Assembly (NCBI GenBank): GCA_040388535.1
Contig: JAZKBR010000001.1
Location: forward strand, 668,821 to 732,820
Origin: Gemmatimonadota bacterium
GTDB lineage: Bacteria; Gemmatimonadota; Gemmatimonadetes; Gemmatimonadales; GWC2-71-9
Reading direction: 5' to 3'
DNA: 64,000 nucleotides
Of the stretch, positions 20,261 to 48,195 are shown one piece after another. Below the pieces are notes generated by a model that saw nothing but the letters and a program-made list of their open reading frames with translations, had not been told where the DNA came from and ran no database searches. The stretch's first letter is position 1, and each line of letters begins with the position of its first letter. A program made the position numbers and the translations under genes.

Positions 20261-21025
20261 ATGCTCGAGATCGGCGGCGTCACCTTCCGGTCGCGACTGA
20301 TGGTCGGCACCGGCAAGTATCGCAACAACGACGAGATGGTCCAGGCGATCGCGGCCTCAGGGGCCGCAGTCGTCACGGTCGCCGTGCGTCGCGTCTCGCT
20401 CGACCGCAGCGACGAAGGCGGCATCCTGCACCACCTCGATCCGAAGCAGTACTTCCTGCTCTCGAATACCGCGGGCTGCTACTCGGCGGATGAGGCGATC
20501 CGCTACGCGCGCCTCGCGCGCGAGGCCGGTTTCAACGATTTCGTCAAGCTGGAAGTCATCGGCGACAAGGAGACGCTCCTTCCCGATACCGCGGGACTGC
20601 TGGTCGCGACCAAGGTACTCGCCGACGAAGGCTTCAAGGTGCTCGCCTACACCAATGACGACCTGATCACCGCACTGCGTCTCGAAGAGGCCGGTGCCGT
20701 CGCGGTGATGCCGCTGGCTTCGCCGATCGGATCGGGACTCGGGCTGCTGAACCCGTATTTCATTCGCACGATCAAGTCGCGACTGCGCGTGCCCGTGATT
20801 GTCGATGCCGGCGTGGGGACCGCGTCCGACGCCTGCCTGGTGATGGAACAGGGTGTCGACGGGATCCTGATGAACACCGCGCTCGCCGAAGCGACCAATC
20901 CGGTCCTGATGGCCGAGGCGATGCGGCTAGGCGTCGACGCGGGGCGCGCATCGTACCTCGCGGGGCGGATGCCGCGTCGCGAAGTGGCGGTGCCGTCGAG
21001 CCCCACCAGCGGGATGCTGCGCTGA
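20261..21025 (+). CDS. thiG: thiazole synthase ThiG
   Basis: A 254-residue TIM barrel with FRSRLMVGTGKYRNNDEM at the start, the Schiff-base lysine region NDFVKLEVIGD, VLAYTNDD, and phosphate-binding VIVDAGVGTASDA. It forms the thiazole phosphate from deoxyxylulose phosphate, ThiS thiocarboxylate and dehydroglycine. No thiC, thiD or glycine oxidase/thiH is in the window. Its stop codon lies inside the CTGA that appears to start rsmB. Confidence 0.95.
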   Translation: MLEIGGVTFRSRLMVGTGKYRNNDEMVQAIAASGAAVVTVAVRRVSLDRSDEGGILHHLDPKQYFLLSNTAGCYSADEAIRYARLAREAGFNDFVKLEVIGDKETLLPDTAGLLVATKVLADEGFKVLAYTNDDLITALRLEEAGAVAVMPLASPIGSGLGLLNPYFIRTIKSRLRVPVIVDAGVGTASDACLVMEQGVDGILMNTALAEATNPVLMAEAMRLGVDAGRASYLAGRMPRREVAVPSSPTSGMLR

Positions 21026-22326
21026 GCGACACCGGCCTTCCGCCGCGGCGCGCTGCACTGGGGATGATGGCCGCAGTGCGTCGCGGCGTGCCATTCGATG
21101 TCGCGCTGGATCGTGGCCTCGCCGCGCTCCCTGAACGCGACAAGCGACTCGCTCACGAACTCGCGGCCGGCATCCTGCGGCAATCAGGCGCGCTCGACCA
21201 GGTCATTGCGCCGTTCGTGCCGCGCGGGATCAGCTCGGTGGCACCCGAACTGCTCGACGTGCTGCGTCTCGGTGCCTACCAGCTGCGCCATCTCGAACGC
21301 GTGCCACCACACGCGGCCGTCGCGACGAGCGTGGCGCTCGCCCGCGAAGTCCTCGGCGAACGCGCGGCTGGGTTCGCGAATGCGGTGCTGCGCCGAGTAT
21401 CCGAACTCGGTCCTGATGCGCCGACTGACCAGGCCGTCGATCTGATTTCGCAACTCGCTGCAACGTGGTCGCATCCGGCGTGGCTGGTGGCACGCTGGCT
21501 CGAGCGATTCGGCGCGGCCGACACCGAAGCGCTGCTCGAATGGAACAACACTCACCCCGCCCTGGTGGTGCAGCCGGCGCGCGGTGGATCGGGCGACCTC
21601 GAGCGGCTCTTTCGTGACGAAGATGTCCGCTCATTCGCGGCCCCGTATGGCGCTGGCATCGTTGTCGACGCCACGCGTCCGGAACGACTCCCCGGCTTCG
21701 ATCGCGGGATGTTCTATGTCCAGGACCCGGCGCAGGCAATGGTCCTTCGCTTCGCCGACTTTGCACCGGGCGCCCTGGTCTTCGACGCCTGCGCAGCCCC
21801 CGGCGGCAAGACGCTCGGACTCGCCCGCAACGCGGTCGGGGTCGTGGCGGCCGACGCATCACGCCGCCGGCTACAGCGGCTGCGCGAAAATCTCCGCCGC
21901 GCGGGACACGGACACGAATTTCCACTGGTGGCCGACGCGCTGCACCCGCCGGTTCGCCCGGTCGCGGCCTACCTCCTCGATGCGCCCTGTCTTGGCACCG
22001 GGACCTTCGCCCGGCACCCCGATGCCCGGCTGCGGGTGACAGCCGAAGCACTCACCCGTCTGGCCCAGGAGCAGGCCGCGCTGCTCGATGCAGCAGCCGA
22101 TCGAGTGGCCCCAGGCGGGGTGCTATGTTACGCCACCTGCTCGCTGGAACCGGAAGAAGATGCCAGCCAGGTGGAGGCTTTTCTGGCGCGCCATCGCGAT
22201 TTCCGCCGTGAACCGACTGCTGCAGTTCCGAGTGAATTGCTCTCGGCCGACGGCGATCTCGAAGTCCTGCCGCAACGGCATGGGATGGACGGCGCGTTCG
22301 CGGCACGACTGGTTCGCATCGCATGA
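21022..22326 (+). CDS. rsmB: 16S rRNA m5C967 methyltransferase RsmB (NusB domain + methyltransferase)
   Basis: A 434-residue protein if begun at CTG 21022. An N-terminal NusB-like helical domain (about 1-140) precedes a Rossmann methyltransferase with VFDACAAPGGKTLGLA (SAM site), DAPCLGTGTFARHPD (first Cys) and the catalytic CYATCSLEPEED. The first ATG (21064) would cut helix 1, because the family-conserved R-x-A…L…V..G helix starts at PPRRAALGMMAAVRRG, whose first residues lie before that ATG. The only in-frame start-like codon upstream is CTG at 21022, which overlaps the thiG stop as CTGA. If ATG 21064 is used the protein is 420 residues. Confidence 0.9.
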   Translation: MSDTGLPPRRAALGMMAAVRRGVPFDVALDRGLAALPERDKRLAHELAAGILRQSGALDQVIAPFVPRGISSVAPELLDVLRLGAYQLRHLERVPPHAAVATSVALAREVLGERAAGFANAVLRRVSELGPDAPTDQAVDLISQLAATWSHPAWLVARWLERFGAADTEALLEWNNTHPALVVQPARGGSGDLERLFRDEDVRSFAAPYGAGIVVDATRPERLPGFDRGMFYVQDPAQAMVLRFADFAPGALVFDACAAPGGKTLGLARNAVGVVAADASRRRLQRLRENLRRAGHGHEFPLVADALHPPVRPVAAYLLDAPCLGTGTFARHPDARLRVTAEALTRLAQEQAALLDAAADRVAPGGVLCYATCSLEPEEDASQVEAFLARHRDFRREPTAAVPSELLSADGDLEVLPQRHGMDGAFAARLVRIA

Positions 22327-29467: not shown

Positions 29468-30069
29468 GGCAACGACCAGAACGCCCGGCTCACCGGCGCA
29501 AACCACGCCGGCGCCGGCAACTGACCGCCGAGCCAGCCGGCCACGAGCAGGCCAACGACGACAATCACCCCGGCCGCTATCCAGAACGGCTGCATCGGTC
29601 GTCGCCACGCCGCGATTTCATCGGCCAGCGCTCGCCACCTCGCGGCATCGACAGAAGCGACACGCTCGGCCCCCTCCCAGCCGGTCGTGACCGCGAGTGC
29701 CCGCGCCCGTCGCGAGGCCGGGTCATCGGGCACCCCTTCGAGCCGCTCCAGTGCCATCCCCTCGGCCAGCAGTCGCTGCAGCAGTGCATCCGCCACTTCG
29801 GCGTCGGGGAGCAAGGCCGCGAGTCGCTTGCCAGGAAAGCGCGCGTGGGCGGCGGCGCTGCGCATGATGGCCTCAGCGTCTCCGAGCACGCGCATACGCA
29901 ACGACCGGACGGCGCCCTCGAAGGCTTCCCGCCAGGCGGCGTGCTCCATCGTGCCTGCGCCCTTCGCGGAGACGAGCGCGTCAAGCAACGCCAGCCGGAC
30001 GTCGTCGTAGGGCGTCTTGCGCGCTGGGTCGGCGAGACGACCGAGATCAGGAGCGAGCGGTTCAGTCAT
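29458..30069 (-). CDS. hypothetical protein with C-terminal membrane anchor
   Basis: A 203-residue protein not recognised. The first 150 residues are helical and charged, without Cys or known motif (PDLGRLADPARKTPYDD at the start, LRMRVLGDAEAIMR in the middle). Residues about 168-188 form one membrane segment (FWIAAGVIVVVGLLVAGWLG), placing the helical domain in the cytoplasm if the tail is short. It starts at ATGA overlapping the CYTH stop and overlaps acpS by 10 bp, so it is part of a tightly coupled operon. Confidence 0.62.
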   Translation of the reverse strand: MTEPLAPDLGRLADPARKTPYDDVRLALLDALVSAKGAGTMEHAAWREAFEGAVRSLRMRVLGDAEAIMRSAAAHARFPGKRLAALLPDAEVADALLQRLLAEGMALERLEGVPDDPASRRARALAVTTGWEGAERVASVDAARWRALADEIAAWRRPMQPFWIAAGVIVVVGLLVAGWLGGQLPAPAWFAPVSRAFWSLPWP

Positions 30070-30656
30070 CGTGGCCAATGGGCCGGCATTTCGTCGGGAG
30101 ATTCGAGCGCGAGCCTTGCCGGGTGCCCGTTCCGGGCCGCGAACTGCGCCGCGAACACCGCCAGCGGTTCCGCGCTGAAGCTCGCTCGGTCGAGTCCGGT
30201 CACGACGATTGCCGCTTCGATTGAATCGCGATCGCCCTCGACCTCGACGAGCGTGTCGCCGTCGGGGTACCACTCGAGTCGCACCATCGCTCCGCCGACA
30301 TCGAACACCTCGACGTAGCGATCAATGGCGTGGATCACTTCGAAGCGGAGTTGCCGCAGCAGCGTCGCAGCGGGCGCACCGCCCGAGAGCATGCTCTCCA
30401 CTTCGGGTCGCGCCTTGTAACCGTGCAGATCGACGGTGGTCGCACCCTTCCAGCCGAGCACTTCGTGCACCGAGCCGTCGGCCTGCTGATAGGAACGCAC
30501 CCGCACTACTTCGTCGGCGAGCGCAAACTCGCCGCCGCGATCGAAGCGACGGTCGAGCATTCGCCCGGCAAACGAGGGCCGATGGCCCGCGTCGCTGAGC
30601 CGACGACGCAGCGCGTCGGCATCGGGCACCACTGCCTTCAATTCGAGTTCTAGCAG
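30066..30656 (-). CDS. CYTH domain protein (triphosphate tunnel metalloenzyme), CTG start proposed
   Basis: A 196-residue protein of the CYTH superfamily (class IV adenylate cyclase, thiamine triphosphatase, inorganic triphosphatase). The signature ExExK is ELELK immediately at the start. Beta-strand residues typical of the tunnel follow (VVRVRSYQ, GWKGATT, RLEWYPDGDTLVEVEGD). If translation began at TTG 30641 the protein would open MKAVV and lose both metal-binding Glu residues. CTG at 30656 gives MLELELK and has GGAGG 7 nt upstream. It overlaps the HAD gene stop. The substrate is unknown; it lies between phosphatase and acpS genes. Confidence 0.78.
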   Translation of the reverse strand: MLELELKAVVPDADALRRRLSDAGHRPSFAGRMLDRRFDRGGEFALADEVVRVRSYQQADGSVHEVLGWKGATTVDLHGYKARPEVESMLSGGAPAATLLRQLRFEVIHAIDRYVEVFDVGGAMVRLEWYPDGDTLVEVEGDRDSIEAAIVVTGLDRASFSAEPLAVFAAQFAARNGHPARLALESPDEMPAHWPR

Positions 30657-31345
30657 AGGAGTGCCTCCATCACGGCCGCGGTATCGGTAAAGGTCTCGAA
30701 CGAACGATATGCCCCGGCGGCATCAAGCTCGGCCACCGAATAGGAGCCGGTCGCGACCCCGATGGCACGCGCGCCAATGGAAGCGCCGCAGGTCACGTCA
30801 GCCGGCGTGTCGCCCAGGATCACGACATCGTGGCCTGACGGAAGATGACCAAGGAATGCTTCAGCGCGCGCGGCGGCGATCGGCGGCAAGTCGGGGCGGT
30901 GCCCGCTGTCGGAGCCAAATGCGCCGAGGGCAAAGCGGTCGAAGGCGAGCCCGGCCGCAGCCAGCTTGAGACGCGCTCCGGGAACGATGTTTCCGGTCAG
31001 GAGCCCCACCAGCACATCGTCGCGCAGCTCGAGTGCCGCGAGCAATTCGGTGATCCCAGGCAGCGTGCGCACCAGATGACCGCGCTCGCCGAGCACCCGC
31101 TCGAGATGGTTCACGTAGCGGCTCAGGAGAAAATCAGTCTGTTCCGGCGTAGCGCGATCAGGAGCACCGGCCGCGTGATAGAGCTCGCGCACGATCTGCG
31201 GATCAGTCTTGCCGTCGAAGCGTACTGACTCGAAGAACGAGGTATCGGCAAACTCCTCGGCGAAGGCGGCCTCGATGGCTCGCCGGCCGGCGGAGGCGCT
31301 CAGCAGCAGCGTGCCGTCGATATCGAAGAGTACCAGCCGTTTCAT
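30650..31345 (-). CDS. HAD-superfamily phosphatase (phosphoglycolate phosphatase-like)
   Basis: A 231-residue haloacid-dehalogenase-like hydrolase. Motif I is LFDIDGTLLL (nucleophile Asp), motif II LLTGN, and motif IV VILGDTPADV. The helical cap lies between residues about 15 and 95, as in type I phosphoglycolate/beta-phosphoglucomutase relatives. It starts as TGATG overlapping the NlpC/P60 stop and its own stop lies within the next gene. The substrate is not determined. Confidence 0.85.
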   Translation of the reverse strand: MKRLVLFDIDGTLLLSASAGRRAIEAAFAEEFADTSFFESVRFDGKTDPQIVRELYHAAGAPDRATPEQTDFLLSRYVNHLERVLGERGHLVRTLPGITELLAALELRDDVLVGLLTGNIVPGARLKLAAAGLAFDRFALGAFGSDSGHRPDLPPIAAARAEAFLGHLPSGHDVVILGDTPADVTCGASIGARAIGVATGSYSVAELDAAGAYRSFETFTDTAAVMEALLC

Positions 31346-46585: not shown

Positions 46586-47137
46586 ATGTCCTTCAAGATC
46601 TACACGCGCACCGGCGACGCAGGCGAAACCGGACTGTTCGGCGGTGGTCGCGTCTCCAAGGATCATCCGCGTGTCGCCGCCTATGGTGACATCGACGAAC
46701 TGAATTCGGTCCTCGGGATGGTGCGCGCCACGGCCCCCACCGACCTCTACGACGCGCTGCTCGAGACCATCCAGCGCGATCTCTTCGCCATTGGCGGCCA
46801 CCTCGCGACGCCTGATCCCGAACGCGTTCGCAAGGCGCTCGAGAAGGCCGAACTCTCCCCCGACCGGGTGACCGAGTTCGAGCGGGTGATGGATGAAGCC
46901 GATGTCGAACTCACTCCGCTCAAGGCCTTCATCCTGCCAGGCGGCGCCCCCAAGGCGGCCGTGCTGCACCTTGCCCGCACCGTCTGCCGACGGGCCGAGC
47001 GCAGCATTGTCCATCTCGCGGCCTCGAGTGAAGTCCCCGAACTCTTCATCGTCTACGTCAATCGACTCTCCGATCTGCTCTTCACGCTGGCTCGGCTGGC
47101 GAACCATCGCGCCGGTCTCGAGGATGTCACCTGGTAG
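46586..47137 (+). CDS. ATP:cob(I)alamin adenosyltransferase, PduO type
   Basis: A 183-residue five-helix protein. It shows the N-terminal YTRTGDAGETGLFGGGRVSKDHPRV (in parts), AYGDIDELNSVLG, and the C-terminal LARTVCRRAERSI and YVNRLSDLLFTLAR. It makes adenosylcobalamin from ATP and reduced cobalamin. It is freestanding rather than in a cobalamin cluster. Its last codons contain the CTG proposed to start aroB. Confidence 0.92.
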   Translation: MSFKIYTRTGDAGETGLFGGGRVSKDHPRVAAYGDIDELNSVLGMVRATAPTDLYDALLETIQRDLFAIGGHLATPDPERVRKALEKAELSPDRVTEFERVMDEADVELTPLKAFILPGGAPKAAVLHLARTVCRRAERSIVHLAASSEVPELFIVYVNRLSDLLFTLARLANHRAGLEDVTW

Positions 47138-48195
47138 GCTCGGTCACCATTCAGCATCGCGCGGGGAGCTATCCCGTCGTCGTGCACGACGGGGCCGTTG
47201 CCGAGCTCGCCCGCCTGGTCGCGCGACACCATCCCGGGAAGCGCGCTGTCGTGATCAGCGACAGCAACGTTGCCGCACTCCTCCCCTCCCCGTTGCCTGC
47301 GGCGGTCCGCCTTACCTTCCCCGCCGGTGAGCGCCACAAGACGCGCGAGAGCTGGCGCACGCTGAGCGATCAGTTGCTGGCACTGGAGCTCGGTCGAGAC
47401 ACCGTGCTGATCGCCTGTGGCGGCGGTGTCACCACCGACCTGGTCGGGTTTGTCGCCGCGACGTACCTCCGTGGCGTGCCGTGGATCGCTGTACCGACCA
47501 CCACGCTGGCGATGGTCGACGCCGCTGTCGGCGGGAAGACCGGAGTCGACACCGCAAGCGGCAAGAACCTCATCGGCGCGATCCACCATCCCGATGCGGT
47601 GCTGGTCGACCCTTCCCTGCTGGCGCCACTGCCGGAGCGGAACTTTCGCGAAGGGCTCGCTGAAGCGGTCAAGCACGCAGCGATCCTCGACGCCGACCAC
47701 GGCCAGTGGCTTCGCAGCCACACCGACGCGATTGCCCGGCGCGACGTCGCCACGCTGACCTCACTGCTCCTGCGCAGCATCGAACTGAAGGCCGGCATCG
47801 TCTCGGCGGATGAATTCGAGTCGGGGGCGCGGGCGATCCTCAATGCCGGGCACACCGTGGCACACGCGCTCGAGCAGGTAACCGGTTACAGCATCCCGCA
47901 CGGCGAGGCCGTGGCCATCGGGCTCGTGCTCGAAACGCGCTGCGCCGAGCAGATGGGCGTATGTGCTGCGGGGACTGCCGAGACGATCGCCGATCTCCTC
48001 CGCTCACTGCACTTGCCGGTCTCGTGGCCGGCCGGCATTGACGCCGACGCCCTGCTGGCGGCGATGCGCAGCGACAAGAAGAATCGCAGCGGTGTGGTGC
48101 GTGCTGCGTTGCTCAAGTCCTTTGGTGAAGTCGCGCGGGACGGCGACTCGTGGACGGTTCCGCTCGATCTGGAAGTCATTCGCTCGCTGGTGTAG
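47131..48195 (+). CDS. aroB: 3-dehydroquinate synthase, CTG start proposed
   Basis: A 354-residue enzyme if started at CTG 47131. It has NAD-binding LIACGGGVTTDLVGFVAA, PTTTLAMVDAAVGGKTGVD, LAEAVKHA and GHTVAHALEQ (metal ligands). It closes the shikimate pathway's first ring. The first GTG (47182) would begin in the middle of the conserved N-terminal beta strand, since SVTIQHRAGSYPVVVHDG aligns with the start of other AroBs. There is no ATG, GTG or TTG upstream in frame before the stop. CTG 47131 has GAGGA 6 nt before it and overlaps the cobalamin gene by 7 bp. Confidence 0.9.
   Translation: MVGSVTIQHRAGSYPVVVHDGAVAELARLVARHHPGKRAVVISDSNVAALLPSPLPAAVRLTFPAGERHKTRESWRTLSDQLLALELGRDTVLIACGGGVTTDLVGFVAATYLRGVPWIAVPTTTLAMVDAAVGGKTGVDTASGKNLIGAIHHPDAVLVDPSLLAPLPERNFREGLAEAVKHAAILDADHGQWLRSHTDAIARRDVATLTSLLLRSIELKAGIVSADEFESGARAILNAGHTVAHALEQVTGYSIPHGEAVAIGLVLETRCAEQMGVCAAGTAETIADLLRSLHLPVSWPAGIDADALLAAMRSDKKNRSGVVRAALLKSFGEVARDGDSWTVPLDLEVIRSLV

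Follow-up and report, generated by a model that had tools for sequence, protein, structure and literature searches.

In a bacterium of the order Gemmatimonadales, the CYTH gene that follows a HAD-family hydrolase gene is very probably translated from a CTG codon, which bacteria hardly ever use as a start; no ATG, GTG or TTG precedes its catalytic motif. The stretch of DNA that was analysed as a whole (64,000 nucleotides, hereafter the window) carries the following features at this junction:

30650-31345, minus strand: HAD-family hydrolase gene (Pfam HAD matches), the upstream partner of the CYTH gene, with a TAG stop at 30652-30650 and a 7-nt overlap with CYTH.
30664-30668, minus strand: GGAGG, a Shine-Dalgarno-like sequence inside the end of the HAD gene, 7 nt 5' of the CTG; spacing the same in the relatives G003 and G066.
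30654-30656, minus strand: CTG, the putative CYTH start codon; the sole column common to the ATG and GTG starts of relatives, occupied by CTG also in the congener G003.
30069-30656, minus strand: CYTH / triphosphate tunnel metalloenzyme (TTM) gene, 196 aa when read from the CTG, stop at 30066-30068; matched to TTMs by PDB profile, AlphaFold and Foldseek.
30636-30650, minus strand: ELELK (ExExK) metal-binding motif of the first beta strand; invariant in 110 of 110 homologues, strand at residues 2-9 of the model.
30639-30641, minus strand: TTG, the first canonical start, which would cut off both Glu; the corresponding codon is CTG in G003.

The minus strand of the junction reads GTGATGGAGGCACTCCTCTGCTAGAACTCGAATTGAAG, that is GGAGG, 7 nt, CTG, and then CTA GAA CTC GAA TTG AAG, as the earlier note had described it. 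The HAD frame ends with CTC CTC TGC TAG, so that the two genes share the seven nucleotides CTGCTAG, and this overlap also agrees with the earlier description. Upstream of the first Glu of ELELK, the CYTH frame meets its nearest stop at a distance of 25 codons, with no ATG, GTG or TTG between them in the window, and the CTG at 30656-30654 stands two codons 5' of this Glu. The first canonical start is the TTG at 30641, from which the protein would begin with MK; it was correctly noted before that every ATG, GTG or TTG start misses the motif. The presence of GGAGG, taken alone, is weak evidence, because the HAD codons ATG GAG GCN partly dictate it.

Homologues of the CYTH gene were collected by whole-genome searches (family: present in 50 of 102 genomes; order: in 160 of 288), and the DNA of 110 of them was read. 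All 110 encode E.E.K. A canonical start precedes the motif in 107, the nearest one being ATG in 67, GTG in 34 and TTG in six, and in 62 homologues it lies exactly two codons before the first Glu, i.e., at the column of the window's CTG. The three remaining homologues, without a canonical start, are those of the window (CTG), of its congener G003 (CTG) and of G066 (ATC); the three codons occupy one shared column, and each has GGAGG 7 nt upstream. An alignment-based scan of contigs returned 80 loci, mostly on the same contigs, with no start-less case beyond G066, and a contig scan with a single CYTH protein as query returned no loci. Of the two questions raised earlier, whether the motif is always encoded and whether it always follows CTG, the first is answered with yes and the second with no, as ATG and GTG prevail. 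Relatives with an ordinary ATG before the motif had been named as grounds for abandoning the CTG start; such relatives do occur, but their ATG falls at the identical column, and so they locate the start instead of refuting it. No ATG, GTG or TTG fits the conserved N-terminus in the window, and CTG stands at the homologous column and is kept in G003.

G003 is the only congener besides the window's genome which retains the CYTH gene. Its product is about 60% identical to that of the window, and its CTG is kept despite synonymous differences nearby (CTA/CTT, CTC/CTT and TTG/CTG). In the phylogenetic tree the window and G003 genes are sisters (support 100/97), whereas the ATC-bearing gene of G066 belongs to another clade together with ATG- and GTG-starting relatives, so canonical CYTH starts were lost at least twice. 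In G084 (L036) the homologous stretch, aligned in register with CTGCTAGAA of the window, is ATGCTAGAG, with ATGCTAG in place of CTGCTAG. Therefore a single A-to-C change from an ancestral ATGCTAG, silent for HAD (Leu CTA to CTC), would explain the CTG of the window. The same one-base difference might be taken for a sequencing or assembly error that turned ATG into CTG; however, CTG was found in the independent genome of G003 with many synonymous differences around it, and the window lies on a contig of 766 kb in an assembly of 11 contigs, which makes such an error very improbable.

In seven congeners (L112-L114, L116-L119) the CYTH gene is missing, and HAD is followed directly by the gene which comes after CYTH in the window. 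Given these deletions, the gene is dispensable and could be poorly expressed. The losses, along with the TTG at 30641 being the first canonical start, are what speaks for translation beginning at this TTG or further downstream, with ExExK lost and the gene non-catalytic or decaying. Against this, the TTG is not conserved: G003 has CTG there, and its next start is a GTG located past ELELK. Furthermore, ELELK and the other strictly invariant residues are retained, and according to the structural model a TTG start would cost the barrel the greater part of its first strand. All residues invariant across the 110 homologues are present in the window protein, which differs from the family in two columns that are nearly invariant, with R instead of G at residue 104 and G instead of M at residue 133. 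Differences between the window and G003 genes amount to 0.28, 0.25 and 0.52 per first, second and third codon position, respectively, with dN of 0.32, dS of 1.17 and dN/dS of about 0.27, i.e., the gene is under purifying selection. Considering the invariant residues, this ratio, the CTG in place of TTG in G003 and the confidently modelled TTM fold, decay or truncation of the gene is unlikely, and we regard a start at or beyond the TTG as improbable. The earlier note had left the choice between CTG initiation and loss of function; the shared start column, the CTG of G003, the invariant residues and dN/dS favour the former.

Two further readings place the beginning of the protein upstream. Relative to HAD, CYTH lies in the -1 frame, which upstream of ELELK is open for 25 codons in the window and for 123 in G003, as would be needed for a HAD-CYTH fusion produced by -1 ribosomal frameshifting near the HAD stop. 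Nevertheless, by inspection the junction CTCCTCTGCTAG contains no heptamer of the X_XXY_YYZ type, relatives possess separate ATG or GTG starts (in some of them an in-frame stop precedes E.E.K by 3-9 codons), and in G066, which also has no canonical start, a stop is located 9 codons before E.E.K. Such a fusion seems quite unlikely, only slightly less so than the sequencing error considered above. Initiation at an ATA codon present in the open frame about 18 codons before the CTG, giving an N-terminal extension, is the least probable of all: this ATA lies deep inside HAD, relatives mostly start at position -2 from E.E.K, and no matching codon occurs in the inspected stretch of G003.

The identity of the protein was assessed by profile and structure comparison. 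With Pfam CYTH it scored 19.8, short of the gathering threshold (23.2); the same Pfam model is matched by 34 of 40 aligned family members at E <= 0.01. The family profile matched solved TTMs in the PDB (best E 5.5e-11, SaTTM). The AlphaFold model (pLDDT 95.9, pTM 0.90) is a tunnel-shaped beta barrel whose first strand, formed by residues 2-9, carries ELELK, and the top Foldseek matches were TTMs, the best again being SaTTM (E 1.8e-9, TMq 0.68). Like SaTTM and other CYTH TTMs (PMC8233210), the window protein possesses RxR, the TTM fold and a second ExE with both Glu (E138 and E140, invariant), as well as the N-terminal ExExK in the form of ELELK, provided that translation starts at the CTG; it is unlike them in the Pfam score given above. 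The HF motif, which is located four residues before ExExK in the class IV adenylyl cyclase CyaB, is absent, the protein starting only two residues before ExExK, and with TIGR00318 it scored 23.8 bits, short of the cut-off of 57.95. According to the motif rules separating phosphatases from adenylyl cyclases (HF and the second Glu of ExE; PMC8233210), the lack of HF and the retained second Glu suggest a triphosphatase and not an adenylyl cyclase, and we infer this activity from the sequence.

The CYTH start is not an isolated case: the pattern recurs in at least two more genes of the window and in a gene of a sister genus. The window genes, both recognized by comparing N-termini with those of congeners, are:

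21022-22326, plus strand: rsmB-like rRNA methyltransferase gene with a putative CTG start at 21022-21024, in a CTGA overlap with a thiG-like gene.
47131-48195, plus strand: aroB-like gene with a putative CTG start at 47131-47133, in a CTGGTAG overlap with an upstream adenosyltransferase-like gene.

Of nine congeners, eight have CTG at the rsmB-like start column and the ninth (G005) has TTG, with no other usable start. The rsmB-like gene of G096, a member of another genus, also has CTG. The aroB-like column contains CTG in six congeners and ATG in one (G006); three of the six with CTG (G000, G001 and G005) have no alternative start. In this overlap the Trp codon of the upstream gene fixes TGG, which leaves the start free to vary in its first base alone. 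In G044 and G101 (L188, L192) the only codon found before the conserved N-terminus of AroB is an ATA overlapping the upstream TAA, possibly an ATA start. CTG starts also occur outside the genus of the window, as a junction survey in the sister genus (g37) showed: an alkyladenine DNA glycosylase-like gene (L218:9483-9486; L268-L274) starts at a CTGA overlap in G088, G089 and G093, and G091 has TTGA, its TTG falling at the same column as the CTG of its relatives. Switching between CTG and TTG at a fixed column is what would be expected of a working start codon.

Three clear CTG cases were obtained from 55 conserved ORFs of the window. The surveys of non-canonical starts, both window-wide and in g37, were noisy and give no reliable rate. 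In the window-wide ones, reading frames that run into upstream genes, along with the frameshifts and in-frame stops of draft genomes, resembled conserved extensions, and use was made only of cases that were confirmed individually for each gene. A conserved ATPase-like ORF of G088 (C6; L213-L218 joined, 95581-97012) is split by one in-frame stop codon.

Taken together, these data are best explained by a functional TTM gene translated from the CTG at 30656-30654 through a coupled restart after HAD, an explanation we hold to be highly likely. Ribosomes finishing HAD at the TAG (30652-30650) would be held by the GGAGG within the end of HAD and would restart 4 nt upstream at the CTG, which the ordinary initiator tRNA would read as fMet, yielding (f)M-L-E-L-E-L-K. 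We infer both the initiation at CTG and the coupling; in this pair stop and start overlap, and the Shine-Dalgarno-like sequence lies in the upstream gene. Once released, ribosomes of E. coli bind anew to a start close to the stop, and a Shine-Dalgarno sequence on the upstream side draws them there (PMC9955659); overlap with the upstream stop together with such a sequence favours restart (PMC9955659; PMC6728339). Because the CTG cases share the overlap with an upstream stop, and because upstream-side Shine-Dalgarno sequences recruit ribosomes in E. coli, coupled restart is the favoured route. Counting against it, a coupled downstream ORF in E. coli was not translated from AUA at the AUG position (PMC9955659), and CUG in E. 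coli reporters gave about 0.86% of AUG expression (PMC11497404).

A relaxed initiation machinery was considered as the cause of the CTG starts and was not found. The initiator tRNA looks ordinary in its CAT anticodon, GGG/CCC stem and anticodon stem-loop, and so do IF3 and the checked 16S rRNA positions (G1338/A1339); the anti-Shine-Dalgarno sequence GGATCACCTCCTT is intact in the 16S rRNA of the window genome.

CTG starts are of a known, very rare kind and appear to recur here unusually often. They make up 0.024% of annotated bacterial starts (PMC11497404), a figure biased by gene finders which rarely allow CTG, and four switches to CUG were reconstructed among about 69,000 ancestral starts (PMC5622118; the total was summed in this analysis). 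As in the bacterial CUG starts already described (PMC11497404; PMC5622118), CTG would be decoded here by the initiator tRNA with a Shine-Dalgarno sequence upstream, but the examples known so far are exceedingly few and, in E. coli, inefficient, whereas here CTG recurs at the overlaps of several conserved genes and seems to have persisted across the genus. The junctions also resemble NTGA coupled pairs (PMC6728339, PMC12548453) in being formed by co-directed genes with an overlap of a few nucleotides and a Shine-Dalgarno sequence inside the upstream gene. In such pairs N is described with canonical starts, and the parts of PMC6728339 and PMC12548453 consulted do not mention CTGA; the CYTH overlap differs from them in its length, which is 7 nt in the window (CTGCTAG) and exceeds this in G003.

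Gene finders limited to ATG, GTG and TTG would drop the catalytic motif or misplace the starts of such genes. In bacteria CTG is regarded as almost without use as a start (under 1% of AUG in E. coli reporters), yet it appears to have been kept throughout the genus in so central a gene as aroB. We tentatively suggest, at somewhat less than even odds, that CTG (occasionally ATC or ATA) is a stable and long-lived start at the overlapping junctions of rsmB, aroB, CYTH and DNA glycosylase genes in this family of Gemmatimonadales, restarting ribosomes being less choosy than those initiating de novo. If this is true, it would become a testable question whether termination-reinitiation at overlaps relaxes the selection on start codons.
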